From positions 4,234,000-4,297,999 of the forward strand of contig NZ_AP025305.1 of the NCBI RefSeq assembly GCF_036492635.1: 64,000 nt of DNA. Direction: 5' to 3'. This DNA is from Aureibacter tunicatorum. Its GTDB lineage: Bacteria > Bacteroidota > Bacteroidia > Cytophagales > Cyclobacteriaceae. Of this stretch, positions 18,383 through 34,269 are shown one piece after another. The notes under the pieces were generated by a model. That model was not told the DNA's origin. It saw only the letters and a list, made by a program, of their open reading frames with translations, and did not search any database. Position 1 is the stretch's first letter; every line of letters starts with the position of its first letter. Made by a program: the position numbers and the translations under genes.

Positions 18383-19606
18383 TTAAGACTCTACTTCAGC
18401 ATCTTTGTACTTAATTTTTCTCAATTCAATAGCTATTCCCATTCTTGCGAGTATCGTAAAGATAAAAGCCCCCATCGCCCAAATTCCAAATGTCACTCCG
18501 ATTTCGATACCTGTTGGCTGATATTCGACTATAGCTCCCCAAGGACCCGGTATAAACCCAGGAATGATCATTCCAAAACCTTTCTCGATCCATATGGCGA
18601 TAAAAAGAAGGCCACTGGCAATATAAAGCAACCTCAAATTATTTCGAACCTTATGAAAGAAAAGTCCTACAGTAGCTATGACATTAATAAATATTGAGGT
18701 TCGAATCCATGGCACCAAAGCATGCTTACCTTCCAAACCAAAGAACAAATAGTAAGCGCTTTCGCTATGATGGGTTGGAAAGTAAAATTCTTTAAACAAC
18801 TCCGACAATAGCATGATTAAATTAATCTGAGCCGCGACCGTAATTATCAAACCTAATTTTCTTAAGGTCTTGTCTGGAATATCAAAGTCCGTGAATTTTC
18901 TTATCATCGCCAAGGCAATAATAATCAAGGCGGGACCTGCCGTAAATGCCGAAGCCAAAAATCTTGGACCTAAAAGGCCAGTATTCCAGAAAGGTCTCGC
19001 AGGAAGTCCTTGCAAGAGGAATGCTGTTACCATGTGAATAGCCACAGCCCAGAAAACTGAAATAATCAAGCCAGGAAGGTAGATCTTAGGATTAGGGGTT
19101 TTCCCCTGATAGCGCATAATCAAAATGTACAATGGAATCGTCAGGTTAATAAGCAAATATCCATTAATAACAAGCACATCCCAAGCGAGTAAAGATTTTG
19201 GGAAATTAAAATCGCCAATAAAAGGAATAATATGCCAAAACCTAGCAGGCCCTCCTATATCCACAACTACAAAAGCCAAGCACATAAGCAATGCCGCCAC
19301 AGCCATTCCCTCTCCAATAAGCACCGCTTGCTTGAAGTCGACATCATTGAGTATATAAGTAGGCAAAACCAACATCACAGCCGCAGCCGCAACTCCAACC
19401 AAAAACGTAAAGTTAGAAATATATAATCCCCAACTCACTCGGTCTGTCATACCTGTAACATGAAGCCCGTCAGCTATCTGAATGCCATAACACAATGCTC
19501 CTACTAACATTACAAAAGTCAACGTCCCCATCCATAGATGGTAAGTTTTTGTACCTCTTACAATGTATCGACCACTGTCCTTAAGCAAATTAATAAAAAC
19601 TTTCAT
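18383..19606 (-). CDS. NrfD/PsrC-type membrane quinol dehydrogenase subunit of the nap operon
   Basis: This is an integral membrane protein of the NrfD/PsrC/ActC family (407 residues, about 9-10 hydrophobic helices), which oxidises menaquinol and hands electrons to a partner Fe-S protein. The start (RYIVRGTKTYHLWMG) and the WGLYISNFTFLVGVAAAA segment are family-typical. It is the last gene of the nap operon and lies 18 bp after the four-cluster Fe-S gene, its expected partner. Because no NapC or NapGH is encoded here, this pair is the probable entry point for electrons to NapA (inference). I found no clear terminator behind it. Confidence 0.88.
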   Translation of the reverse strand: MKVFINLLKDSGRYIVRGTKTYHLWMGTLTFVMLVGALCYGIQIADGLHVTGMTDRVSWGLYISNFTFLVGVAAAAVMLVLPTYILNDVDFKQAVLIGEGMAVAALLMCLAFVVVDIGGPARFWHIIPFIGDFNFPKSLLAWDVLVINGYLLINLTIPLYILIMRYQGKTPNPKIYLPGLIISVFWAVAIHMVTAFLLQGLPARPFWNTGLLGPRFLASAFTAGPALIIIALAMIRKFTDFDIPDKTLRKLGLIITVAAQINLIMLLSELFKEFYFPTHHSESAYYLFFGLEGKHALVPWIRTSIFINVIATVGLFFHKVRNNLRLLYIASGLLFIAIWIEKGFGMIIPGFIPGPWGAIVEYQPTGIEIGVTFGIWAMGAFIFTILARMGIAIELRKIKYKDAEVES

Positions 19607-19624: not shown

Positions 19625-20704
19625 TTAATCCATATAATACCAAAACTTAGGCTCCGTTCCCAAATCCTCTTTAAGACGAAACACGTTCTTATTCTCAATT
19701 ATCCATCTGATATCACTATTCGGATCCAACAAATTGCCAAAAACTCTAGCGCCAGTAGGACAAGCTTCCACACAAGCAGGATTCTCACCTTCACGAGAAC
19801 GCTGAATACAGAAAGTGCATTTTTCCATTACTCCATTCTTTCTCAAGCGATTCCCTAGATAATGCTGATCTTTATTCACTTCTTCTTCAGGCACTTCCGG
19901 TGTTTTCCAATTAAACCTTCTACCATCATACGGACAAGCTGCCATGCAATATCTACAACCAATGCACCAGTCATAATCAATTACGACAATACCGTCTTTT
20001 TCTTTCCATGTCGCATTCACAGGACAAACATCTACGCAAGGAGGGTTATCGCAATGAAAACACTGAGTTCCAACATAAAAATGTCCCGCGGCCGGCACTT
20101 CATGGTAGAAAGTATCATCGCCATTCATAAAGTCTATTCCATTTCCTCTGCCTATCTCATGAATACGAATGTATTGCATTTCTGAAGCTCTATCCTGATT
20201 ATTTTCTTCCACACAGGCATTGACACAATCCATATAGCCTTGGCACTTTGAAATATTAAATGCGTAGCCATAAAGCACATCTTTTTCAGGGCCTTTTGCA
20301 GAAAGATTGATTTTATCGCCCTTTCGTATCTCGTAAGACTTAGTAAGCCGATCCACAGTATTCTGCTTTTCCTTACTAGACATCAAGCGATAATTTCCTT
20401 TAAAGTATTCTTCCCATTCGATTTGAGAAAGCTCTTTTTTATCTTTTCCATCAGTAACACTACATGCCGAAGACACAGCTCCAGCGCCAATCATAAGGCT
20501 TGAAGTTAATTTTTGCAATGCACCTCGACGGCCGGAAGAAGCTCCCAATACCTGATCATAACCATCGTTTTTCTTGTTTTCCTCTCCAGCACCACCTTTG
20601 CAAGAACAAGGCTTACCTGATGACCCACAACCTCCATGCGATTGTTTTTGGTCTTGATTAGATTTCGTTAAAAGAGCAAACCATTCTTTTATCTTACCAC
20701 TCAT
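19625..20704 (-). CDS. Four-cluster ferredoxin-like Fe-S subunit (NrfC/DmsB/ActB-like)
   Basis: This electron-transfer subunit links the NrfD-type quinol oxidase to the cytochromes. Cysteine groups are C215/218/223/227, C247/250/253/257 and C296/299/311/315, plus an incomplete group C154-x5-C160-x3-C164 where the expected second cysteine is Tyr157. That gives 15 rather than 16 ligands, so one cluster may be [3Fe-4S] (inference). An unusual ~58-residue N-terminal extension contains a cysteine/glycine-rich patch (C26, C33, C35). It is followed by a twin-arginine-like segment (R59-R60, GALQKL, hydrophobic stretch) ending in a lipobox-like SSAC81. This implies Tat export and possibly lipidation in the periplasm. 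It lies between the tetraheme lipoprotein gene and the NrfD gene (20- and 18-bp gaps). Confidence 0.88.
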   Translation of the reverse strand: MSGKIKEWFALLTKSNQDQKQSHGGCGSSGKPCSCKGGAGEENKKNDGYDQVLGASSGRRGALQKLTSSLMIGAGAVSSACSVTDGKDKKELSQIEWEEYFKGNYRLMSSKEKQNTVDRLTKSYEIRKGDKINLSAKGPEKDVLYGYAFNISKCQGYMDCVNACVEENNQDRASEMQYIRIHEIGRGNGIDFMNGDDTFYHEVPAAGHFYVGTQCFHCDNPPCVDVCPVNATWKEKDGIVVIDYDWCIGCRYCMAACPYDGRRFNWKTPEVPEEEVNKDQHYLGNRLRKNGVMEKCTFCIQRSREGENPACVEACPTGARVFGNLLDPNSDIRWIIENKNVFRLKEDLGTEPKFWYYMD

Positions 20705-20723: not shown

Positions 20724-21422
20724 TTAATTCCTTTGCTGTATCATGTGGGTATTCAGTCGTGAAGGCCACCTATGCTTAATTTTAGGATCATGAGGATTAT
20801 GACACCCTACACATGTCTGTCTAATTTTAGGCTTGCCCCAACCATTCAAACGCTTGCCATGAGCTCCGTTTTCCCATTCTTTGAATTGAGTGCTATGACA
20901 CTGAGCACAAACAGCATAACTCGCATTGAAACTTACTGTCTTGTTTGTAATGCTCTTAAGCTGATTCATATTCTTCTCATCATGACAAGTCGCGCAATCC
21001 ATCGTGCTAGAGTCACCATGAGCCATTATCACATCCCAGTGAGCCTTTTTAAAATAAGAATTCCACTTCTCATTGCTTTCTTTAATCTTAGGATCTCCTT
21101 TCGGATTTGGAAAATCCCCCCATGCGTCCCCTTGGAGCTTTAGTTGCTTTAATGGGACTGAGTGACAATTTTCACACGGAAACTCCTGAACTATGGCTGA
21201 CCTTTTCGGAATAGCAAAAGCATGGGCAGCAATCGTATCAGGCATCACAAGAACTGTATCAAAATAAATTTCCGAATTATCTCCTATGTAAAAAGCCTGA
21301 TAGTCTTTCCCTTCTCTTAATATTCTATGAAAAGTACTTTCATGTTCTTGTTCCTCTCGGTGATTATTACAAGAGGAAAATGCCAGAGTCATTATTATCA
21401 AAAAGTAAAATACATTTCTCAT
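20724..21422 (-). CDS. Tetraheme cytochrome c lipoprotein of the nap operon
   Basis: This is a periplasmic electron carrier, probably between the Fe-S protein and the NapB-like cytochrome. MRNVFYFLIIMTLAFSSC is a lipoprotein signal with Cys18 as the lipidated residue. Four CxxCH heme motifs are at residues 83-87 (CENCH), 143-147 (CATCH), 172-176 (CAQCH) and 204-208 (CVGCH). Several extra histidines (for example H128, H135 and the AHGKR segment) could be distal ligands. It has no membrane helix after the signal, so it is not a NapC/NrfH protein. It starts 10 bp after the preceding cytochrome gene. Its exact family is not recognised; the class (multiheme c cytochrome) is certain. Confidence 0.85.
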   Translation of the reverse strand: MRNVFYFLIIMTLAFSSCNNHREEQEHESTFHRILREGKDYQAFYIGDNSEIYFDTVLVMPDTIAAHAFAIPKRSAIVQEFPCENCHSVPLKQLKLQGDAWGDFPNPKGDPKIKESNEKWNSYFKKAHWDVIMAHGDSSTMDCATCHDEKNMNQLKSITNKTVSFNASYAVCAQCHSTQFKEWENGAHGKRLNGWGKPKIRQTCVGCHNPHDPKIKHRWPSRLNTHMIQQRN

Positions 21423-21432
21423 AATCTTAGAC

Positions 21433-22122
21433 TTAATTTTCTTTTTTCCTTGAATAAGCTGGTATAGGAACTAGCTCTAGATTGTTGCTAACATGGCACT
21501 GAAGACAATTAACTCTTTCAGGATGTGTCACTCGAATCTCTTTAGGCGCGCTTGGTCCACCGTGGCATGCCAAACAGTTCTCATGCATCTGAAGCTGATG
21601 AGGAACAACAGGCGGACTTGACACTGTAGAAACATTTCCTAAAGGCGGAGCTTTCAGCTTCTTGTATGTTGACTCTTTAAACAAACCATCAGTTTGCACG
21701 CCAACATGACATTGTCTGCAATTCACCATCTCAGGGTGCGGAGTAATTGGAGCAAAAGTTTTAAACTCAGCAACAAAACCTCCATTTTGATGACATTGGA
21801 GACAACCTTTTCCTCCCATCGTCTTAGGATCTAAAATCGGATGAGGAATAGTAGGAGGAGCTCCATGAAATGCCTTATTTCGATAATACTCTTTTAGTGT
21901 TATTTCATTTCTGATTTCAAGAGGAAGTTGAGCATACTCTTCCGCAAAGCTTGCCCTTTCAAAAACACCGCTCTCATATGGCAGAATCTTGTACTCATCA
22001 TCAACTTGTTTGATGAGCGGAGTTTTCGCTTCTTCTTGAACAGCTTTCAGACTATAGGCCACAATAATTGCAGAGGCGAAAATCAATAGTCCGAAAAATA
22101 TTAATACTAAAAAATGCTTCAT
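21433..22122 (-). CDS. NapB-like tetraheme cytochrome (tandem-duplicated NapB module)
   Basis: This is the electron-donor subunit for NapA. An N-terminal hydrophobic segment (about 4-24) acts as a signal or membrane anchor. The first module (about 88-141) has APPTIPH, CLQCH at 107-111, then TPHPEMVN and CRQCH at 135-139 followed by VG, which is the canonical diheme NapB pattern. A second module (about 169-212) repeats it: SPPVVPH, CLACH at 183-187, VTHPERVN and CLQCH at 206-210 followed by VS. Ordinary NapB is about 150-170 residues with two hemes; this one is 229 residues with four. It directly follows napA (16-bp gap). Whether both modules contact NapA is unknown. Confidence 0.88.
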   Translation of the reverse strand: MKHFLVLIFFGLLIFASAIIVAYSLKAVQEEAKTPLIKQVDDEYKILPYESGVFERASFAEEYAQLPLEIRNEITLKEYYRNKAFHGAPPTIPHPILDPKTMGGKGCLQCHQNGGFVAEFKTFAPITPHPEMVNCRQCHVGVQTDGLFKESTYKKLKAPPLGNVSTVSSPPVVPHQLQMHENCLACHGGPSAPKEIRVTHPERVNCLQCHVSNNLELVPIPAYSRKKEN

Positions 22123-22138
22123 AGCAAATACCTTTGGG

Positions 22139-24466
22139 TTAAACCTTTTCTACTTGAACAGCACATTTTTTATAATCTGGTTCGGCTGAAATCGGATCAT
22201 ATGCATCGATCGTTAATTTGTTCACCAACATATTCTCATCGAAAAAAGGAACAAACACCTGACCTACAGGAGGCAAACCTCTATCGTTAATCAATGCAGG
22301 AAGAACTAATTCTCCTCTTTTCGAACTTAATCGAACCATATCTCCAGTATTTATACCTTTATCATTAGCATCAGCTGGATTTAATTCCACATAAGCATGT
22401 GGCATAGCGCGATACAATGTAGGAACACGCATAGTCATCGAGCCTGTATGCCAATGCTCCAATACTCTCCCTGTATTCAGCCAAAATGGATACTCTGCAG
22501 TAGGCACTTCAGCAGGCCCTTCATAAGGCCTCTGCCATATCACCGCTTTGCCATCAGGTCTTCCATAGAAGTCGAATTCCCCTTTAGTGCAAGCAGGATC
22601 ATACTTGGCATTGAACCTCCACTTAGTAGGCTTGCCATTCACATAAGGCCATTGCATGCCTGCTTCAGCTTTCAACACCTCCAAAGGAGCCATATTATGC
22701 TTGTCATTATCATGAAATTGTCGATACTCATTGTAAATTTCTTCTATATGAGTCTCCTTCTTATATGGAAACTGCTTTTCAAACCCCAATCGACGAGCAA
22801 CTTCTATTAATTGCCAAGTATCGCTCATGCTTTCACCTGGCGGCTCCACCATCTGTTCGAAATACTGAGTTCTTCTTTCTGAATTACCAAACATTCCTTC
22901 TCGTTCCACCCACATCGCTGAAGGCAAAATCACATCAGCCACATCCGTTGTAGGTGTAGGATAAATATCCGACACTACTACAAATCGTCCTTCTTTTTTA
23001 GCTCCAGCGGTATAGCGATTGACATTCGGCAATGAAACCATAGGATTCGTAACTTGTATCCACATAAACTTGATATCTCCCCGATCCAAAGCTCTAAACA
23101 TTTCGACAGTGTGATAAGTCGGTTTCGGAGGTATATTTGAAGCAGGAACTCCCCAAATTTTAGCGGCAAACTCTCTATCCTTTTGATTATTAACCACGCC
23201 TTTAGGCAAGCGGTTCGTTAATGTTCCGACTTCTCTTACCGTACCACAAGCACTCGGCTGACCAGTAAGCGAGAAAGGACTATTACCTGGCGTGGATATC
23301 TTTCCTGTCAGTAAATGGATGTTATAAACCAAGTTATTGATCCAAGTCGCACGAGTATGCTGATTCATCCCCATGCACCAAAATGATGTTACTTTCTTAT
23401 TGGGATCTCCATACAATGAAGCCATATAACGAATATCCTTAGCAGATACTCCGGATATTTTCTCCACCTTTTCAGGCGTATAATCTTCTAAAAACTCTAT
23501 ATACTCATCCAGATCAATCGGAACAGGCTCATCAGAAAACTTAAATTTATCTCTCAAGCCGTACCCGATATTTGTCTTTCCTTTACTAAGAGTGCAGTAT
23601 TTGGATACAAACTCTTTATTTTCCCAGCCATTTTTCAGAATTACATAACTGATTGCATTGGCAACAGCCAAATCAGTTTGAGGCTTGAACAAAATTGACT
23701 TGTCCGCGGCGACACTTGTTCGAGTCGTTCGAGTAGCGAAATCTATGATGACTGCCTTTCTTTTATACTTTTGATCCAAAAGTCTCGAAAACAGCACCGG
23801 GTGCATCTCAGCCATATTATTCCCCCACAAAAAGAATACGTCCGCATGATCAATATCATCATAGCATCCCATCGGCTCGTCCATTCCAAAAGATGTCAAG
23901 AAACCTGTTACAGCTCCGGCCATGCATAGACGAGCATTCGCCTCGACATTATTGGTACTCAAACAACCTTTGAACAATTTGGAAGCTACATATCCATCTT
24001 GTATAGTCCACTGACCCGATCCATATATGGACAAGCTGTCATTGCCATATTGCTCGCGTGTTTCTTTCATTTTGGAAGCCACAAGGTCCAATGCTTCTTT
24101 CATTGAAACTTCAACATACTTGTCACCTTTTTTCACCAATGGCTTTTTAATACGATCCGCTCCATACATAGCAATCACCGCATTATACCCTTTGGCGCAG
24201 CAAAGCCCTTTGTTAACTGTTGAGTTTTCATCGCCTTTCACGGCAACAGCTTTGCCATTTTCGATTCCTACCTTTACTCCACAGCCAACTCCACAAAATC
24301 GACATGGCGCTTTTTTCCACTCCAAATCTCCCGCTGGAAGATTTGCTAATTGCTCTTCGGCAAAAAGTATTCCCGGAATCATGGTTGTCGCTGTAGTCAC
24401 AGCAGACATCAGCGCCAGTTTTTTCAGGAATGATCTACGACTTTCATTTTGTTCAAACATGTTCAT
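22139..24466 (-). CDS. napA: Periplasmic nitrate reductase catalytic subunit NapA
   Basis: This Mo-bis-MGD enzyme reduces nitrate to nitrite in the periplasm. From the chosen ATG, a Tat signal (SRRSFLKKLAL, R10-R11) is followed by the [4Fe-4S] ligands C55, C58, C62 and C90, and by the molybdenum ligand Cys181 in ARLCMAG. Later MGD-binding stretches (FFLWGNNMAEMHP, WCMGMNQHT, TGRVLEHWHTGSMT) are typical of NapA. The protein is 775 residues, slightly shorter than proteobacterial NapA. The in-frame ATG at 24493 would add nine residues inside napD. I prefer 24466, 5 bp after the napD stop, because the Tat motif then sits at the usual distance (a start at 24460 is equally possible). Confidence 0.96.
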   Translation of the reverse strand: MNMFEQNESRRSFLKKLALMSAVTTATTMIPGILFAEEQLANLPAGDLEWKKAPCRFCGVGCGVKVGIENGKAVAVKGDENSTVNKGLCCAKGYNAVIAMYGADRIKKPLVKKGDKYVEVSMKEALDLVASKMKETREQYGNDSLSIYGSGQWTIQDGYVASKLFKGCLSTNNVEANARLCMAGAVTGFLTSFGMDEPMGCYDDIDHADVFFLWGNNMAEMHPVLFSRLLDQKYKRKAVIIDFATRTTRTSVAADKSILFKPQTDLAVANAISYVILKNGWENKEFVSKYCTLSKGKTNIGYGLRDKFKFSDEPVPIDLDEYIEFLEDYTPEKVEKISGVSAKDIRYMASLYGDPNKKVTSFWCMGMNQHTRATWINNLVYNIHLLTGKISTPGNSPFSLTGQPSACGTVREVGTLTNRLPKGVVNNQKDREFAAKIWGVPASNIPPKPTYHTVEMFRALDRGDIKFMWIQVTNPMVSLPNVNRYTAGAKKEGRFVVVSDIYPTPTTDVADVILPSAMWVEREGMFGNSERRTQYFEQMVEPPGESMSDTWQLIEVARRLGFEKQFPYKKETHIEEIYNEYRQFHDNDKHNMAPLEVLKAEAGMQWPYVNGKPTKWRFNAKYDPACTKGEFDFYGRPDGKAVIWQRPYEGPAEVPTAEYPFWLNTGRVLEHWHTGSMTMRVPTLYRAMPHAYVELNPADANDKGINTGDMVRLSSKRGELVLPALINDRGLPPVGQVFVPFFDENMLVNKLTIDAYDPISAEPDYKKCAVQVEKV

Positions 24467-24470
24467 ATCT

Positions 24471-24701
24471 TTAATTAACCTCAAAGCCTGCAACCATGGA
24501 GAGTGACATCAGACTTGGAATATTTTTAAGATTCGCCTGAATTTGCTCATCGTCTTCTTTGGACAATGCATCCGTAACAATGATAATCACTTCATGATTC
24601 TCAGAAGGAACTACCTCGCAGCTTGGTAATTTTTCAATGGAATCAATTAATTCTTCTTTTTTTCCTTCAATTGGATATGCTATGTAACTCTTAACAGGCA
24701 T
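24471..24701 (-). CDS. napD: Nitrate reductase Tat-signal chaperone NapD
   Basis: This small cytosolic chaperone binds the NapA Tat signal and holds back export until the cofactor is inserted. The start MPVKSYIAYPIEGK, the alternating beta/alpha pattern, the VPSENHEVIIIVTD strand and the ending SLSMVAGFE fit the NapD family (about 76-90 residues). ATG 24701 is preferred to an in-frame GTG seven codons upstream because NapD proteins normally begin at this point. It is the first gene of the nap operon. Confidence 0.88.
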   Translation of the reverse strand: MPVKSYIAYPIEGKKEELIDSIEKLPSCEVVPSENHEVIIIVTDALSKEDDEQIQANLKNIPSLMSLSMVAGFEVN

Positions 24702-24964
24702 CGTTTTGTTTTTTTCAAACACAAGATTTTTATATTAAAATCTGTATTTCAAAAACTGAACTATTTGTATGTATAATTATTCTAAATAGAGAAAGGCTTG
24801 AAAAATAAGGAAAACACTAATGGACAGGACATAAATCATCTAAAGCTAAATCACTTTATAAACTATAACATCGAAATGATTTTTTAAAAAATTAGATTTA
24901 TAATAAAAAAAATCGTTCAAATCCAAACATTTTCAATTTTGATTGCTTTATAAGAAAGTTTTTG

Positions 24965-25000: not shown

Positions 25001-26353
25001 ATGAAAAGAAATTTTACCGTTAAATCATTCAGCTTCAGCCTTTTATTTTTCTTGATCATTTCCCTTCCTTCATTTGCCCAAGAAATAAAAATCGACGCGC
25101 AATTAAGACCTCGTGGAGAAATGAGACACGGGGTGTTTTCACTAGTGGACAAAGACCAAGATGCCATATTCGGTGTCACTCAACGGGCTCGAATCAACTT
25201 CCATTACGATTCTGAGAAAATAAAAATCGGATTCTCCGTTCAAGACGTTAGAACTTGGGGTGATACCCAACAAGCCGCTCTTAATGATGGAGCGAGAACA
25301 GCCATTGCTCGCGCATGGGCAGAAGTATTTTTTCTTCCAAGTTTTTCTTTAAAACTCGGCCGCCAAGCCATCTCCTATGATGACGAGCGAATTTTTGGTG
25401 CATTGGATTGGGCGAACCAAGGCCGTTTTCACGATGCGGGTATATTTAGGTTTTCAAAAAATGGCTTCAAAGCCGACCTAGGATTGGCTTTTAATAGAAA
25501 TTCCCAAGCATTTGGAACACCTGTGGATGGAGATGTCGACTCCTACTATAATGTCAACAACTATAAAAACATGCAATACCTTTGGCTACACAAAGACTGG
25601 GAGACATTGAAACTTAGTTTGTTGTTCATCAACAATGGCTACCAAGCGTCTAATGTAAACGCTAATAATACTGTTACAGATTCAACAAATGTTTACACTC
25701 AAACCTACGGTTTTTACTTAGAGAAAGAGATAGGCAATTTAGACATTGATGTGTCATTTTACATACAGTCAGGAGAAGATAGAGTAGCTCAAAATAACGT
25801 TTGGGTGCCTAGAGATGTTAGCGCTTACTTATGGGCGATATGGTTGAAATATCACTTTACCAAAAAATTCAATGTGCATATAGGCAGCGACTACCTATCA
25901 GGGACAGAGTTGAATGGCAATGAGACAAAGAACAAAAGTTTCAATCCTTCATTTGGAACCAACCATAAATTTTACGGAATTATGGACTACTTCTATGCCG
26001 GCAATGGACATAGAAATGTTGGGCTTTGGGACGCTCATATCGGCGCTGGATATACTTTCTCAAAGAAATTCAAAGCGGACCTTACTGTGCATAACTTCAC
26101 GTCAACAGCCCAAATCCTTCAGTCTGTCGGAGGAGCCAAAGAAGATGATCAATTGGGAACTGAATTTGACCTGACTTTCGGATACAACCCAACAAAAGGC
26201 GTTGCGATAATAGGTGGTTATTCTCAAATGGTGGCATCCACAACCATGGAAACACTAAAAGGAGGAGACTCCAATGCTACTCAAAACTGGCTTTGGGCTC
26301 AGGTCAATATCAATCCTACAATTTTCAAATGGAAGAAAAAGAAAGAAAAATAG
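25001..26353 (+). CDS. Alginate-export-family outer-membrane porin
   Basis: This is a predicted outer-membrane beta-barrel. The signal peptide ends at SLPSFAQ|E (about residue 26). The remaining ~424 residues show alternating aromatic/polar strands, with the opening KIDAQLRPRGEMRHG and the LGRQAISYDDERIFG segment typical of the alginate_export porin family. The name reflects the Pseudomonas AlgE founder; most Bacteroidota members have unknown substrates. It is transcribed divergently from napD, so a role in nitrate/nitrite passage is possible (inference from position only). The C-terminal lysine-rich end is unusual for a barrel, which normally ends in an aromatic residue. Confidence 0.8.
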   Translation: MKRNFTVKSFSFSLLFFLIISLPSFAQEIKIDAQLRPRGEMRHGVFSLVDKDQDAIFGVTQRARINFHYDSEKIKIGFSVQDVRTWGDTQQAALNDGARTAIARAWAEVFFLPSFSLKLGRQAISYDDERIFGALDWANQGRFHDAGIFRFSKNGFKADLGLAFNRNSQAFGTPVDGDVDSYYNVNNYKNMQYLWLHKDWETLKLSLLFINNGYQASNVNANNTVTDSTNVYTQTYGFYLEKEIGNLDIDVSFYIQSGEDRVAQNNVWVPRDVSAYLWAIWLKYHFTKKFNVHIGSDYLSGTELNGNETKNKSFNPSFGTNHKFYGIMDYFYAGNGHRNVGLWDAHIGAGYTFSKKFKADLTVHNFTSTAQILQSVGGAKEDDQLGTEFDLTFGYNPTKGVAIIGGYSQMVASTTMETLKGGDSNATQNWLWAQVNINPTIFKWKKKKEK

Positions 26354-28071: not shown

Positions 28072-28100
28072 AAAGCCGTATATCTTTTACGGCTTTTTTA
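28070..28100. terminator. Bidirectional terminator between tRNA-Ala and the cytochrome operon
   Basis: The stem AAAAGCCGTA / TTACGGCTTTT, with an A-run left and a T-run right, starts at the tRNA CCA end and reaches the stop codon of the converging cytochrome b gene. Confidence 0.8.
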
Positions 28101-29501
28101 CTTATCTGCTTTTTTTGCTTTTAAAAACGCGACCAAAGCAGCCAATTCACTTTCGCTTAAAGAACCTCCAAAAGCAGGCATATTTCCTCCGCCATTGACG
28201 ATACGAATCACCATTTCCGAAGAAGTAAGCCTATATTCAATTTGTGTCAAATCAGGTCCCCTAGCTCCTCCATACTCTCCGATCTTATGACAATAAAGAC
28301 AACCTTTGTCATAAAAAAGCTGAGCGCCTTTAACAACTTCCGCCGAAGAATTATCAACAATATCAGCTGGCAATGGCTTAGTGTCGAATTTTGGCGACCA
28401 TGGCGACCTCATTCCTTCAACAGTGAATGCAATAATCACCATAACCGTAAACACCACACCAATTATCGCCCAAGGCCTTCTCATAGGATGTCTTTCCTTC
28501 CGCTTGGATAAAAATGGAACAGCAAACATCAAGAACAAAATGATCAAAGGACCAAATGCAATTACATAACTTTCTATTTTAGGCGGCATCAATGCAAAAA
28601 TCGCAAAAACCCAAGATAGGTACCAATCTGGTTTGGGATTGGCATAAATACTATCCGGCCTAGGCGGCCCCAACAATTCCGGAGCACCCTTATATATCGC
28701 CAAAAATGTGATAATCAAAATAACCACCGTTCCAAAAACCACATCTCTCCAAGCCGCGAAAGGGAAAAAAGGCACGCCCTCTTTTTTCAACATTCCTTCA
28801 TACCAGTCTCTATAGTCTTCCTTTCCTAAAAGGCGTCCTCTTTTAGGAGGCTCGGAAATACCATTTCTAAATACCAAATAAACATGAAACGCTGTAAATG
28901 CGAATAACAAAGCTGGAACAACAAAAACATGGTAAGCATAAAAACGGCTCAAAGTATATCCTCCGATAGTTTCTCCACCAATCAAGAAGTAAGCTATGCT
29001 CTTCCCTATCAATGGAATTCTCCCCAACTGCTCCGCGGCGACTACAGCAGACCAGACACCTGTATCGTCCCACCTTAACAACTGGCCTGTAAAACCCATC
29101 ACAATGGTCAACAACAGTAAAACAATTCCCGTAATCCACTGCATTTCTCTTGGGAATTTATAAACAGCCATCAAGTAAACTCTTATCATATGAATTCCCA
29201 TCAAAAGAATCATACCTGAGGCTCCAAAGTAATGCATTCCTCTTAACCAGCTGCCCAAAACCGCTTGGTTTGAGATATATTTTAATGATTCATAAGCTGT
29301 TTCCACAGAAGGTTGATACAATAAGGACAAGCCTATACCTGTGACCACTTGAAGCATAAAGCAGAACAAGGTCGCGCTACCGAAGACATAAGACCACTTG
29401 GCCCCCGGAGGCACCAAATGCGTTGCCAAAGGAACCACCAAAGCGGAAACACCTGTTCGATCATCAAGCCAATCCCATATTTTCAACATTCTTTTTTTCA
29501 T
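28098..29501 (-). CDS. Cytochrome b of a bc/b6f-type complex fused to a C-terminal cytochrome c domain
   Basis: This is the quinol-oxidising membrane subunit. The 467 residues combine a full cytochrome b (N-terminal four-helix heme part and C-terminal subunit-IV-like part in one chain) with a C-terminal c domain. Heme-b histidine pairs lie in helices LRGMHYFGASGMILLMGIHM and YAYHVFVVPALLFAFTAFHV. The Qo-site motif is PDWY, the variant of PEWY. The c domain has CLYCH at 401-405, with a probable Met ligand in NMPAF. It is the last gene of the oxidase-bc operon, 34 bp after the Rieske gene. The fusion removes the need for a separate cytochrome c1 gene. Confidence 0.93.
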   Translation of the reverse strand: MKKRMLKIWDWLDDRTGVSALVVPLATHLVPPGAKWSYVFGSATLFCFMLQVVTGIGLSLLYQPSVETAYESLKYISNQAVLGSWLRGMHYFGASGMILLMGIHMIRVYLMAVYKFPREMQWITGIVLLLLTIVMGFTGQLLRWDDTGVWSAVVAAEQLGRIPLIGKSIAYFLIGGETIGGYTLSRFYAYHVFVVPALLFAFTAFHVYLVFRNGISEPPKRGRLLGKEDYRDWYEGMLKKEGVPFFPFAAWRDVVFGTVVILIITFLAIYKGAPELLGPPRPDSIYANPKPDWYLSWVFAIFALMPPKIESYVIAFGPLIILFLMFAVPFLSKRKERHPMRRPWAIIGVVFTVMVIIAFTVEGMRSPWSPKFDTKPLPADIVDNSSAEVVKGAQLFYDKGCLYCHKIGEYGGARGPDLTQIEYRLTSSEMVIRIVNGGGNMPAFGGSLSESELAALVAFLKAKKADK

Positions 29502-29535
29502 AATGGAAATATTTTTATCTCTATCAAAAAATGAA

Positions 29536-30054
29536 TTAGCCGTCTTTAAGCGTTGTAATCGGCAATGCCTGCGTCATAATCTCAACATTGCCTTTATTTA
29601 ACCTAACCATATACCGTGTCAATGGCTTAGGAGGAGGGCCAGATGCCACACTTCCATCTTTATAATAAACACCGCCATGGCATGGACAAAGAAATAACTC
29701 AGAGTTTGCTTCCCACCTTACTGGACAACCCAAATGAGCACAATTAATGGCAAATGCTGTATATTCGTTTTCATTGTCTTTTCTCAACCACGAAGCTGTT
29801 CTTGATATTGTCTTGGCCCATTCATCCGGATCACTATCTTCAAACGTTACTAAAACCGTTTTTCCGACTTCAAAATCGTTATTCTTTCCCACGCTTCTCC
29901 AAACCTGCTTTTTACGCTTGATTAATGGTTGCAATAGGGCTCCGATTACCGGTATTGTTACTATACCGGCAGAAATTCCCCCAAGCCAAAAGCTTAGTTT
30001 TGTCAAAAACGACCTTCTGCCGAGTTCTTTATTATCTCGTTTGCATTCACTCAT
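29536..30054 (-). CDS. Rieske [2Fe-2S] protein
   Basis: This is the high-potential Fe-S subunit of the quinol:cytochrome c oxidoreductase. A Tat signal-anchor (GRRSFLTKLSFWLGG, near residue 13, with a hydrophobic helix after it) is followed by the cluster-binding boxes CAHLGC and CPCHGG, whose two Cys and two His hold the cluster and whose outer cysteines form the usual disulfide. 172 residues is normal. It overlaps the upstream small oxidase-subunit gene by 8 bp and is followed by the cytochrome b/c fusion. Confidence 0.95.
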   Translation of the reverse strand: MSECKRDNKELGRRSFLTKLSFWLGGISAGIVTIPVIGALLQPLIKRKKQVWRSVGKNNDFEVGKTVLVTFEDSDPDEWAKTISRTASWLRKDNENEYTAFAINCAHLGCPVRWEANSELFLCPCHGGVYYKDGSVASGPPPKPLTRYMVRLNKGNVEIMTQALPITTLKDG

Positions 30055-30283
30055 TTTCTGCCTCCTTCTCGCTTATTTCTTTGATTTCAATTCTCATGTC
30101 CCAGATCCATCCATAAACTCCGTAAGCGAGCAATGCCAATCCAATTAATGACAACACATACAAAGTCACAATTCCCCAAAATATAAATGTTATGCCAAAA
30201 GCTACCACTAAAGGATACCAGGTTGGCGCAGGCAAATAAGGAGGATAAGCTTTATGTTTTTGCTTTTTCTCATTCTCTGACAT
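30047..30283 (-). CDS. Small membrane subunit of the oxidase (subunit IV-like)
   Basis: A 78-residue protein with charged ends and two hydrophobic helices (about 22-42 and 44-60). It begins MSENEKK and contains YPPYLPAPTWYPLVVAFG, a pattern seen in small caa3-oxidase subunits of Bacteroidota. The position between ctaG (3-bp gap) and the Rieske gene (8-bp overlap) supports an oxidase-subunit role. The similarity is one of pattern and context rather than a diagnostic motif. Confidence 0.7.
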   Translation of the reverse strand: MSENEKKQKHKAYPPYLPAPTWYPLVVAFGITFIFWGIVTLYVLSLIGLALLAYGVYGWIWDMRIEIKEISEKEAENE

Positions 30284-30286
30284 AAG

Positions 30287-31087
30287 TCAACTTACTTTTT
30301 CATTAGACATCCATTTAAAGAAAATAACCATGGAAATAGATAAATAAATCAAACATCCAGGCACCCACATGATAAGGCCGGCAACTTGCTGATCGGATCT
30401 AGGGCTGACTTTCCAATCGTTTACCACCAATGATTGTAAATTTCCCGACATAACATTTTCCGAAAATTTCGGGTATAAGATCTTAGGAGAAAACGCGATA
30501 GCAATGCCTAGCAAACTGCATGCGATGCAAGCTGTCACCAAATACGAAATTCCTTTCATTGGCGCCAATCTATTAGAATAATCAGGATTCAATACTGGAT
30601 AATAAAACCACAAGCCTATCAATAAACTCAATAAATAAACCAAGGGCTGTATATTCGACCATTGCTCAGGTGTAGGACATATCCTAAACAATGGCATGCT
30701 TTCATTCACAAACCCAGGCGCGTGAATCAACCACATAAACAATACAAACACTACCCAAGACAATACTGGTCTCAATTTCACTTTTCTTCCTTGCCATTTC
30801 TCACCTGTTCCATCCAAACTCAAAAACAGTAATGCTGGCAATAACATCAAAATAGCGACGTGCTGGAGCATATGCGCATAAAACAAATATCCATGAGCCA
30901 AATATGCCAAGGGAGAAGAAAGCGCTACAATCACCACAATTAATGCTATAATCCATAAGATATAATTCTTTAAGCTTGCCCCTCCTCTTTTTATCATTAT
31001 GAACAAGGCCACAAGCAAAACCAAATATATTGGCAGCTCTCCTAAGCTAAAAACCCATTGCTTCCATATGTCAATTGCTAATATCAT
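30287..31087 (-). CDS. ctaG: CtaG-like cytochrome c oxidase assembly protein (caa3_CtaG family)
   Basis: This is an integral membrane protein (266 residues, about seven hydrophobic helices) of the caa3-type CtaG family, which helps assemble heme-copper oxidases, probably through copper insertion. The family's conserved histidine in HMLQHVAILMLLPALL is visible, as is the HAPGFVNE segment. The start at 31087 is chosen because its ATG overlaps the subunit III stop in a TGATG arrangement and gives a normal N terminus. The longer reading from 31159 would run 72 bases back into subunit III. Confidence 0.85.
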   Translation of the reverse strand: MILAIDIWKQWVFSLGELPIYLVLLVALFIMIKRGGASLKNYILWIIALIVVIVALSSPLAYLAHGYLFYAHMLQHVAILMLLPALLFLSLDGTGEKWQGRKVKLRPVLSWVVFVLFMWLIHAPGFVNESMPLFRICPTPEQWSNIQPLVYLLSLLIGLWFYYPVLNPDYSNRLAPMKGISYLVTACIACSLLGIAIAFSPKILYPKFSENVMSGNLQSLVVNDWKVSPRSDQQVAGLIMWVPGCLIYLSISMVIFFKWMSNEKVS

Positions 31088-31674
31088 CAGATCAAAGGCT
31101 TTAAGTAAACAAAGAAGAAAACAAAGATCCATACTACATCCACAAAGTGCCAATACCATTCGGCCACAAGCATTCCCGGAGGAATTTGCTCATTTCCAAC
31201 TCCGTAGCCAAATATTCTGCATAACATCCATGTGACTATCAAAATTATCAAGCCAACAAACACGTGGAAAGCGTGAAAGCCTGTCAATGTGAAAAATGCC
31301 GATCCAAAAATATCTTTATCTATAGTCACTTCTTCGCTGAAGAGATTTAGATACTCTGTCGCTTGACCAAATAAAAACACCGCTCCAAAGACAATCGTAA
31401 TAGCCAAGTATATAAGCGCCAACTTATCCTTGCCTTTCCTAAGCGCATTGGACCATAATGCTATCGTACCACTGCTTGCAAACAAGAAAATCGAAAAGAA
31501 ACCTGTTCTTTCTACCTGCAGATGCTTTGAAGATTCGCTCCAATCCATGGATAAATTCCTAAAATACACAAAGGCAATAATCAAAGCTGCGAAAAACAAA
31601 GCCTCTGATGCCAAAAGCAATTGAATCATCAATCTTGATTGTTTGTACCTTATTGCCGATTCATTCACCATCAT
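31087..31674 (-). CDS. Cytochrome c oxidase subunit III
   Basis: A membrane subunit of the heme-copper oxidase. 195 residues and five hydrophobic helices correspond to the short bacterial CoxC form. The SEALFFAALI helix and the glutamate/histidine-rich LTGFHAFHVFVGL and AEWYWHFVDVVWIFVF segments are diagnostic. It overlaps subunit I by 14 bp upstream and shares one base with ctaG downstream, which indicates translational coupling. Confidence 0.93.
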   Translation of the reverse strand: MMVNESAIRYKQSRLMIQLLLASEALFFAALIIAFVYFRNLSMDWSESSKHLQVERTGFFSIFLFASSGTIALWSNALRKGKDKLALIYLAITIVFGAVFLFGQATEYLNLFSEEVTIDKDIFGSAFFTLTGFHAFHVFVGLIILIVTWMLCRIFGYGVGNEQIPPGMLVAEWYWHFVDVVWIFVFFFVYLKPLI

Positions 31675-33331
31675 TTCTTTGATTTGTTTTTTCCCAATCT
31701 ATAAGAGGCCTGGAAGTTTTGACTTCATCCAGTTCATCAAAATTTTTCAAACTTGGCGGAGAAGAAGCGAACCACTCAATCGTCCAAGCGTACCAAGGAT
31801 TTGAAGAAGCTTTCATTCCCTTTCTCAGACTATGAAAAATATTAAAAATAAATATCAACATAGCGATCATCATTAATACTGCTCCCATCGTTGCTATGAA
31901 ATTCATAGAACCGTAATAAGGCAAATCCGGATAAGTATACACCCTACGAGGCATTCCCAACAAGCCCAGCAAGTGCTGAATTAAAAAGGTCATATTAAAA
32001 CCGATAAGAAAAAGCCAAAAATGCCACTGTCCCAACTTTTCAGACAGCATCTTACCGCTAATTTTTGGAAACCAATAATATATGCCCGCGAAAGAAGCAA
32101 ACAATGTGCCTCCCAAAAACACATAATGTATATGAGCTACCACAAAATATGTATCAGTAATATGCCAATCTATCGGAGCAATAGCGAAAGCAATTCCGCT
32201 TAAGCCACCTAATGTGAAATCTATCAAAAAGGCCACTGCGAATAACATGGATGTTGAAAAGAAAATTCTTCCTCCCCACATCGTGGCTGTCCAGTTGATT
32301 ACTTTTATTCCTGTTGGTATTCCTATCAACATGCTTGCCGCAGAGAAGAAAGTGTTTACGGGGTTTCCAAGCCCAACTGCGAACATATGATGCGCCCAAA
32401 CCCCAAACGACAATAAAGCTATAAACACAGTGCTCGCGGCAAGAGTCACATATCCATAAATTTTCTTACGACTAAATACCGGTATTACCTCCGAAATAAT
32501 TCCAAACGCAGGCAATGCTAAAATATACACCTCAGGGTGTCCAAATGCCCAAAATACATGTTGCCAGAGAACCGCAGAGCCTCCTGTCGCCGGCAAGAAA
32601 AAGTGCGCTTGCAATTGCCTATCCAACAACAGCATAAAGAGACCCGCATTCAATAATGGAAATGCTCCTAGTATCAGAAAGCTATTAAAGAACACCATCC
32701 ATACAAACAATGGCAGCTTATTCATCTTCATGCCTTTCACTCGCATGGTAATCGTAGTGACAATGAAATTAAGCGCAGCTCCTATACTTCCGATTCCTGT
32801 GACAATCAAGCCAATTGAGTAATAATCCAGTCCGGGAGTAAAAGAGTAATTTTTTTCACTCAAGGGCGCGTAACTAAACCAACCTGCATCTGGCGCTCCC
32901 CCTGCCAAATAACTAAAATTCAATAACAAACCTCCTAAAAGCGTGATCCAAAGGCTCATGGCATTCAGTCTTGGAAAAGCCATTTCATTCGCACCAATCA
33001 TCAAAGGAAGAAAATACGTACCCAATCCGATTAGCGTAGGCATCAACACAAGAAAAACCATCGTAGTCCCATGCATGGTAAACAGTTGATTGTACACTTC
33101 TGGTCCTAGCAAGTTCAATTCGGGCAGGGCCAATTGAGCCCGCATCAACATGGCTTCCGCTCCTCCTACAAGAAAAAAGAACAAAGCCATCCACAGGTAC
33201 ATTATCCCCAACTGCTTATGATCAGTGCTTGACAGCCATTGCAATAAACCATAGCCTGTTTTTATCGATGGCAATGGCGTTTCAGGCTCTGGAATCATAT
33301 TTCTTTTATATCCTTCCATCCATGATGTCAT
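31661..33331 (-). CDS. ctaD: Cytochrome c oxidase subunit I (heme-copper, aa3/caa3 type)
   Basis: This is the catalytic oxygen-reducing, proton-pumping subunit. The 556 residues have about 12 helices. Visible metal ligands are the low-spin heme His in TMHGTTM, CuB and crosslink residues in FGHPEVYILALP (His...Tyr), the HH pair in WAHHMFAVG and the heme pair in VVAHIHYVFLGG. The HPEVY tyrosine and the K-channel region identify an A-type enzyme. It overlaps subunit II by 4 bp (ATGA). Confidence 0.96.
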   Translation of the reverse strand: MTSWMEGYKRNMIPEPETPLPSIKTGYGLLQWLSSTDHKQLGIMYLWMALFFFLVGGAEAMLMRAQLALPELNLLGPEVYNQLFTMHGTTMVFLVLMPTLIGLGTYFLPLMIGANEMAFPRLNAMSLWITLLGGLLLNFSYLAGGAPDAGWFSYAPLSEKNYSFTPGLDYYSIGLIVTGIGSIGAALNFIVTTITMRVKGMKMNKLPLFVWMVFFNSFLILGAFPLLNAGLFMLLLDRQLQAHFFLPATGGSAVLWQHVFWAFGHPEVYILALPAFGIISEVIPVFSRKKIYGYVTLAASTVFIALLSFGVWAHHMFAVGLGNPVNTFFSAASMLIGIPTGIKVINWTATMWGGRIFFSTSMLFAVAFLIDFTLGGLSGIAFAIAPIDWHITDTYFVVAHIHYVFLGGTLFASFAGIYYWFPKISGKMLSEKLGQWHFWLFLIGFNMTFLIQHLLGLLGMPRRVYTYPDLPYYGSMNFIATMGAVLMMIAMLIFIFNIFHSLRKGMKASSNPWYAWTIEWFASSPPSLKNFDELDEVKTSRPLIDWEKTNQRNDGE

Positions 33332-34269
33332 TTTAAATTATATAAATACGCAGTCAGAGCATTGAGCTCTTCTTCAGTAAAAAGAAAATCAGGCATATGA
33401 GCGCCTGGCTTAACTTTTTGAGGGTCTCTTAGCCAATCTTTTAAACTTCCGGGACCATTTCTTAACTTGCCCCCAAGCAATGTTTCTCGACTCCCCAAAT
33501 GCGTCAAGTCAGGTCCAATCCCAGCAACAGCTCCAGTTCCTTGAATCGCATGGCAATTTGAACAGACTTTGTCTTGAAATATCTTCGCTCCTTTTTTTTG
33601 CAAAGCCGTTTGTGGTATCGAAGCTTTCTTCTTTTGATCCGCAAGCCATTTTTCGTATTCGTTTTGCTCATGAGCCACAACCAATATTCTCATCCAAGCA
33701 TGCTGGGCTCCGCAATACTCATTGCAAGCTCCGTCATAATGCCCCGGCTCCAAAGCTTGCATCCAGACATAATTCGACTGCCCAGGAATCATATCCATCT
33801 TTCTACCCAATGCAGGAACATACCAATCATGAATTACATCTTTTGACTCCAATCTGACCAAAAGTCTTTTTTCTATAGGAATATGCAGCTCATTGGCAGC
33901 CACTACACCTTCTGAGGGATAATTTATCTCCCACCACCATTGATGTCCTGTAATGATTATATCAGGCTCTTTTCCTTCTGGGATCGGTGTTTGTATCTTG
34001 TTTATTGCTCCTATAGCCAGCACCAAAAAAGAAACCACAAGCACCGATGCAAAGCCAATAGTTAAGTACTCAACCTTATGGCTTTCATGCGTATCAAAAT
34101 GTTGCTTGGAATGATCAGATACCTTGAACTTTCTTAGAATATAAAATGTAACTCCTAAAACGATTGCAAACACAAAACCTCCGGCAATAAGGAAATAGCC
34201 GAAAAGTTGTTTCATCGTTTCTGTATCCTCTGATGAGCTTTTGAAAATATGGTCAATTGATTCCCACAT
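33328..34269 (-). CDS. ctaC: Cytochrome c oxidase subunit II fused to cytochrome c (caa3 type)
   Basis: This is the electron-entry subunit. Two N-terminal helices (about 20-45 and 70-95) lead into the cupredoxin domain with GHQWWWEINYP. The CuA motif is C182-x3-C186-x3-H190-x2-M193. A C-terminal cytochrome c domain has CSNCH at 236-240 and a Met ligand in HMPDF. The fused c domain makes the enzyme caa3-type, so electrons can arrive directly from another bound heme. It is the first gene of the seven-gene oxidase-bc operon. Confidence 0.96.
   Translation of the reverse strand: MWESIDHIFKSSSEDTETMKQLFGYFLIAGGFVFAIVLGVTFYILRKFKVSDHSKQHFDTHESHKVEYLTIGFASVLVVSFLVLAIGAINKIQTPIPEGKEPDIIITGHQWWWEINYPSEGVVAANELHIPIEKRLLVRLESKDVIHDWYVPALGRKMDMIPGQSNYVWMQALEPGHYDGACNEYCGAQHAWMRILVVAHEQNEYEKWLADQKKKASIPQTALQKKGAKIFQDKVCSNCHAIQGTGAVAGIGPDLTHLGSRETLLGGKLRNGPGSLKDWLRDPQKVKPGAHMPDFLFTEEELNALTAYLYNLK

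Follow-up and report, generated by a model that had tools for sequence, protein, structure and literature searches.

Gene organization of the nap locus

The window, a 64,000-nucleotide stretch of the Aureibacter tunicatorum contig NZ_AP025305.1, carries a nap operon in the order napD-napA-napB4-cyt4-DsrO-like-DsrP-like, where NapB4 denotes a NapB-like cytochrome with four heme motifs. The genes are as follows.

24471 to 24722, minus strand: napD-like chaperone (PF03927, E 1.5e-5, slightly below the cut-off), placed before napA in most loci
22139 to 24493, minus strand: napA, catalytic subunit (NF010055, 956.5 bits, cut-off 904; matches to NapA entries of the PDB)
21433 to 22122, minus strand: napB4, NapB-like cytochrome of 229 aa with two modules and four hemes
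20724 to 21422, minus strand: cyt4, probable intermediate carrier, a tetraheme cytochrome whose N-terminus is lipobox-like (four CxxCH motifs; generic multiheme Pfam matches)
19625 to 20704, minus strand: DsrO/NrfC-like Fe-S protein with a twin-arginine motif (NF045797, 195.9 bits, cut-off 200; Fer4 domains)
18383 to 19606, minus strand: NrfD/DsrP-like membrane protein, probable menaquinol oxidase (NF045798, 394.3 bits, cut-off 350; PF03916)

Judged by its sequence, the catalytic subunit is a true NapA. It lacks a segment of approximately 40–50 residues after residue 577 that is found in the NapA proteins of E. coli, Cupriavidus, and Rhodobacter, and the same segment is also missing from the Desulfovibrio enzyme. 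On the plus strand, the interval 21433–22122 is interrupted by many stops.

The same genes occur in the same order across the Bacteroidota loci that we fetched, when contig ends are allowed for. A. tunicatorum has a second complete napD-A-B4-cyt4-DsrO-DsrP operon (L068:4160-10501) approximately 340 kb away, whose NapA is 76% identical to that of the window and whose NapB4 is 47–55% identical, depending on the aligned stretch. A suspected internal TAA stop in this second napB4 was dismissed, as the open reading frame is complete at 223 aa. There is no NapC in the nap operon of the window. The sole NapC/NirT protein above the cut-off in the A. tunicatorum genome is probably NrfH, because its gene adjoins nrfA. 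The presence of NrfHA elsewhere in the genome suggests that nitrate is reduced to ammonium.

The DsrO-like and DsrP-like pair downstream resembles the quinol-oxidising modules of the DsrMKJOP and NrfCD types. Those modules serve sulfite or nitrite reduction, whereas the pair in the nap operon is coupled to a nitrate reductase. The NrfD-like subunit (window 18383-19606; L108:8343-9560) passes the NCBIfam equivalog cut-off for the DsrP of sulfate reduction despite its nitrate-reductase operon. In a Flammeovirga relative, NapB4 carries the annotation “cytochrome c3 family protein”; its membrane subunit is labelled sulfate-reduction DsrP, which is likely an over-annotation.

Two further observations concern the surroundings of the operon. 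A plus-strand gene that diverges from it (25001-26353) matches the outer-membrane porin family Alginate_exp, and its product may be an anion channel. Nearby, the region 28098-34269 encodes a Rieske protein and a cytochrome b that ends in a cytochrome c domain at its C-terminus; the open reading frames that come next resemble a cytochrome c oxidase cluster.

Heme motifs and modules of NapB4

The NapB4 chain consists of two modules, each of which follows the pattern PPxxPH ... CxxCH ... HPE(M/R)VN-CxQCHV.

21661 to 21876, minus strand: module 1, residues 83-154, with PPTIPH, CLQCH, PHPE, and CRQCHV (98.1% profile match to NapB)
21790 to 21804, minus strand: heme motif 1, CxxCH at residues 107-111
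21706 to 21720, minus strand: heme motif 2, CxxCH at residues 135-139
21448 to 21633, minus strand: module 2, residues 164-225, with PPVVPH, CLACH, THPE, and CLQCHV (98.2% profile match to NapB; Pfam is split between NapB and Cytochrome_C7)
21562 to 21576, minus strand: heme motif 3, CxxCH at residues 183-187
21493 to 21507, minus strand: heme motif 4, CxxCH at residues 206-210

An earlier note on this DNA had placed four hemes at exactly these residues, and all of the motifs are found there in the minus-strand frame. The two-module architecture that it described is likewise borne out, and it is conserved in 66 relatives. The PPxxPH motif occurs once per module and supplies a distal histidine (His94 in module 1 and His175 in module 2), a second distal histidine is present in each (His129 and His200), and both modules contain NCxQCHV. 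Among the 66 relatives, both PPxxPH motifs, the four CxxCH motifs, and the four distal histidines are 98–100% conserved. In one relative (L039), the fourth motif reads CxxCN; its assembly may be at fault because its napA is also in pieces. From this conservation, all four hemes are predicted to be bis-histidine ligated.

Both modules resemble NapB

To examine the internal repeat, module 1 was aligned with module 2 after masking of the heme motifs and compared with 5000 shuffles. The window protein gave a z of 3.5, with 31 of the 5000 shuffles not beaten. The second NapB4 copy of the genome and one Bacteroidota relative each gave a z of 8, and relatives from the KSB1 group and Spirochaetia gave 9.8 and 4.0, respectively. 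In three of these four other chains (z of 8–10), the module pair scored above all 5000 shuffles. Profile-profile comparison over all relatives matched the modules with 99.2% probability. The alignment of the two halves thus upholds the repeat proposed in the earlier note, and the sequences indicate that it is genuine, beyond a chance recurrence of CxxCH.

A reading of NapB4 as a generic tetraheme cytochrome of the c3/c7 type, similar to NapB only through PPxxPH and CxQCHV, has to be weighed. With the whole chain, and likewise with module 2, the Pfam c3/c7 families score near NapB, and the annotation of the Flammeovirga relative points the same way. When the modules were searched singly, module 1 matched Pfam NapB in 13/13 members, with NapB as the top family by E-value (best 1.9e-10). 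Module 2 matched it in 12 of 13 (best 1.2e-5), with Cytochrome_C7 next at 4.3e-5. In module 2 of the window protein, Cytochrome_C7 (3.1e-4) is ahead of NapB (0.01). Each half thus matches NapB in nearly all members. On the other hand, hhalign profile comparison matched canonical NapB to module 1 with 98.1% and to module 2 with 98.2% probability, whereas NapC and the adjacent tetraheme cytochrome cyt4, the two other multiheme families compared, reached 13–74%. The concern that the second half might fit another family better is thus borne out by the Pfam search of the window module, in favour of C7, and countered by the profile comparison, in favour of NapB. The whole chain also scores above the cut-off of PF03892 (27.2 bits against 25.1, a small margin), and napB4 is linked to napA. 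A c3/c7 origin consequently appears improbable, and we take both halves as NapB-derived, module 2 less securely. When the whole chain was searched against PDB sequences, only noise was returned, except for a short CxQCHVS stretch of 1jni.

NapB4 differs from canonical NapB in the spacing of its motifs. In all of the seven canonical NapB sequences of our reference set, which were taken from plasmid-borne nap operons, the hemes are 40 residues apart, and the distal histidines lie in PPxIPH and VTH. The corresponding distances in NapB4 are 28 residues in module 1 and 23 in module 2. In module 2, the loop that separates the distal histidine from the second heme is missing, so that THYMDREG...SPRRYFC of NapB becomes THPERVNC. 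The modules therefore look like compressed NapB cores. NapB (PF03892; 1jni, 1ogy, 3ml1) shares with them the core PPxIPH ... CxxCH ... H ... CxQCHV, the two distal histidines per unit, and a gene that adjoins napA in a nap operon. However, NapB is a single core of approximately 150 residues with two hemes and is soluble after signal cleavage, whereas NapB4 has two cores with a shorter loop in each, four hemes, 229 aa, and a probable uncleaved helix. Because of these differences, NapB4 is best classed as a duplicated relative of NapB rather than as plain NapB. The NapC/NrfH family of quinol dehydrogenases (PF03264) also carries four hemes on a membrane anchor, but a relationship is unsupported by the profiles (15% in hhalign for the full chain; Pfam E 0.78).

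Distribution and age of the duplication

The napB4 gene lies directly beside a true napA in approximately 60 Bacteroidota loci. In a sample of 395 Bacteroidota genomes, NapA exceeded the cut-off in four, and napB4 adjoined napA in all of them. A class-level sample contributed three more genomes with NapA; the four-heme NapB4 is complete in two of them, and in the other the contig ends inside module 1. Together, the two surveys place napB4 beside NapA in 7/7 Bacteroidota genomes, one of them truncated by a contig end. A PF03892 search detected no ordinary two-heme NapB in the 395 genomes. The only further hits were two secreted-looking nine-heme proteins of approximately 683 residues (L074 and L076) with weak NapB-profile scores, which were set aside, as they seem to be unrelated multiheme proteins. 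Over these seven genomes, NapA largely implies NapB4. Outside Bacteroidota, napB4 was found in 7/82 KSB1-group genomes and in one Spirochaetia MAG.

A recent, strain-specific duplication with a new function would be compatible with the close likeness of HPExVNCxQCHV in the two window modules. Against it stand the identical architecture in 66/66 relatives and the module tree, in which module 1 of Bacteroidota, KSB1, and Spirochaetia forms one clade (99/97), so we rule such an event out for practical purposes. Because module 1 from all these groups forms one clade, the tree supports a single, old duplication, whether or not the gene later moved between phyla. The tree comprises 71 columns with long branches, and canonical NapB has no settled place in it. 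The earlier note had regarded the duplication as novel, which it is not: the four-heme form is present at every Bacteroidota NapA locus examined and is common to KSB1 and Spirochaetia. Its own proviso, that NapB in Bacteroidota might generally be four-heme, is largely the case (seven of seven NapA genomes, one truncated). A search of the open-access literature turned up no account of a four-heme NapB.

Probable membrane tether

22027 to 22119, minus strand: hydrophobic helix at the N-terminus (residues 2-32), probably an uncleaved membrane anchor (AlphaFold helix; conserved hydrophobic stretch)

The AlphaFold model of the window NapB4, built from an alignment with 22 relatives, has a mean pLDDT of 49. 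It contains a helix at residues 2-32, with pLDDT values of 94–98 over the first 20 residues. In Bacteroidota, the N-terminus of NapB4 forms a conserved hydrophobic helix and has no lipobox; these proteins are probably membrane-tethered. Most KSB1 NapB4 proteins have a lipobox. It is absent in two (L121 and L122), which may be soluble; tethering is therefore not universal. The use of two different means, a helix and a lipobox, suggests that the tether matters.

Proposed electron path and exchange of the donor

We consider it probable that, in the Bacteroidota-type nap operon, NapB4 acts as the standard partner of NapA in electron transfer, with a NapB core that was duplicated once, long ago. 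This role is supported by the NapB profile matches, the invariant hemes and histidines, the linkage to napA, the lack of NapC in the operon, and the single-duplication tree. Counted against it are the preference of the window module 2 for C7, the heme spacing of 28 and 23 against 40 residues, the pLDDT of 49, and the KSB1 proteins L121 and L122.

From the gene content and from what is known of the NapB and NrfD/DsrP families, we infer the following order. Electrons would pass from menaquinol to the NrfD/DsrP-like protein and its DsrO-like Fe-S partner, from there to the tetraheme lipoprotein cyt4 and to NapB4, and then through the 4Fe-4S cluster of NapA to the molybdenum site. One of the NapB4 modules probably docks on NapA in the manner of NapB, and its partner would reach toward the donor. 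The longer heme wire would thereby replace the handover from NapC to a soluble NapB. Nitrite is probably reduced by NrfHA. The earlier suggestion that one chain could serve as both NapB and the NapC-side carrier is only partly plausible: the operon is devoid of NapC, but the separate tetraheme lipoprotein and the DsrOP-type quinol dehydrogenase would fill the NapC side.

The neighbours of napA-napB4 differ among KSB1 genomes. At two loci the pair adjoins genes for Rieske, cytochrome b, and an HAO-like octaheme cytochrome, and a third carries NrfD-type genes together with cyt4, and there napB4 stands last. Clusters that combine Rieske, cytochrome b, HAO-like octaheme cytochrome, napA, and napB4 (L132:8929-15464; L133:8396-14880) could possibly form a nitrate and nitrite reduction chain at one locus. 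NapB4 keeps company with NapA while the quinol-oxidising part varies.

These loci bear on the most important rival reading, in which NapB4 would correspond, in Bacteroidota, to NapM, a tetraheme cytochrome encoded in clusters that lack NapB, such as napCMADGH of Desulfovibrio and napMADGH of Deferribacteres, Thermosulfurimonas, and Caldithrix (PMC5317091; PMC4911364; PMC6896113). On that view, NapB4 would be a known protein under another name. NapM, too, is a small tetraheme partner of NapA, its clusters lack NapB and often NapC as well (PMC5317091; PMC4911364; PMC6896113), and like NapB4 it is presumed to be the electron donor of NapA (PMC5317091; PMC4911364). The KSB1 napB4 loci and the described Caldithrix nap cluster have Rieske/cytochrome b and HAO-like genes in common (PMC5317091). 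However, NapM genes precede napA and are paired with NapGH (PMC5317091; PMC4911364), whereas napB4 follows napA in nearly all loci and is paired with DsrOP-type genes, and in publications NapM is treated as different from NapB. The comparison with NapM covers gene position and partners as published. A tetraheme protein beside the napA of Selenomonas was tried as a stand-in for NapM and turned out to be an ordinary NapC family member. We regard the NapM reading as unlikely, though less so than a c3/c7 origin.

Returning to NapB4 as a duplicated NapB, we tentatively propose, at somewhat less than even odds, that NapA and the duplicated, usually tethered NapB4 constitute a distinct, portable Nap module without NapC. 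It would plug into alternative quinol oxidases, either NrfD/DsrP with the tetraheme lipoprotein (Bacteroidota and some KSB1) or Rieske/cytochrome b with the HAO-like octaheme protein (other KSB1), and the second NapB unit would act as the adaptor to the donor.

Implications

Periplasmic nitrate respiration is usually described by the proteobacterial NapABC scheme. The donor side described here departs from it, in that NapC is absent and NapB is doubled and probably anchored. Because NapB4 of the Flammeovirga relative is annotated as a “cytochrome c3 family protein” and its membrane subunit as DsrP, surveys that seek napB or napC by name may overlook NapB4 systems. NapB4 also offers a natural example of a heme wire lengthened by module duplication. 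To judge from the genomes compared, the doubled NapB is no oddity of the A. tunicatorum genome; it is an old, standard feature of Nap enzymes throughout Bacteroidota and in several other phyla.
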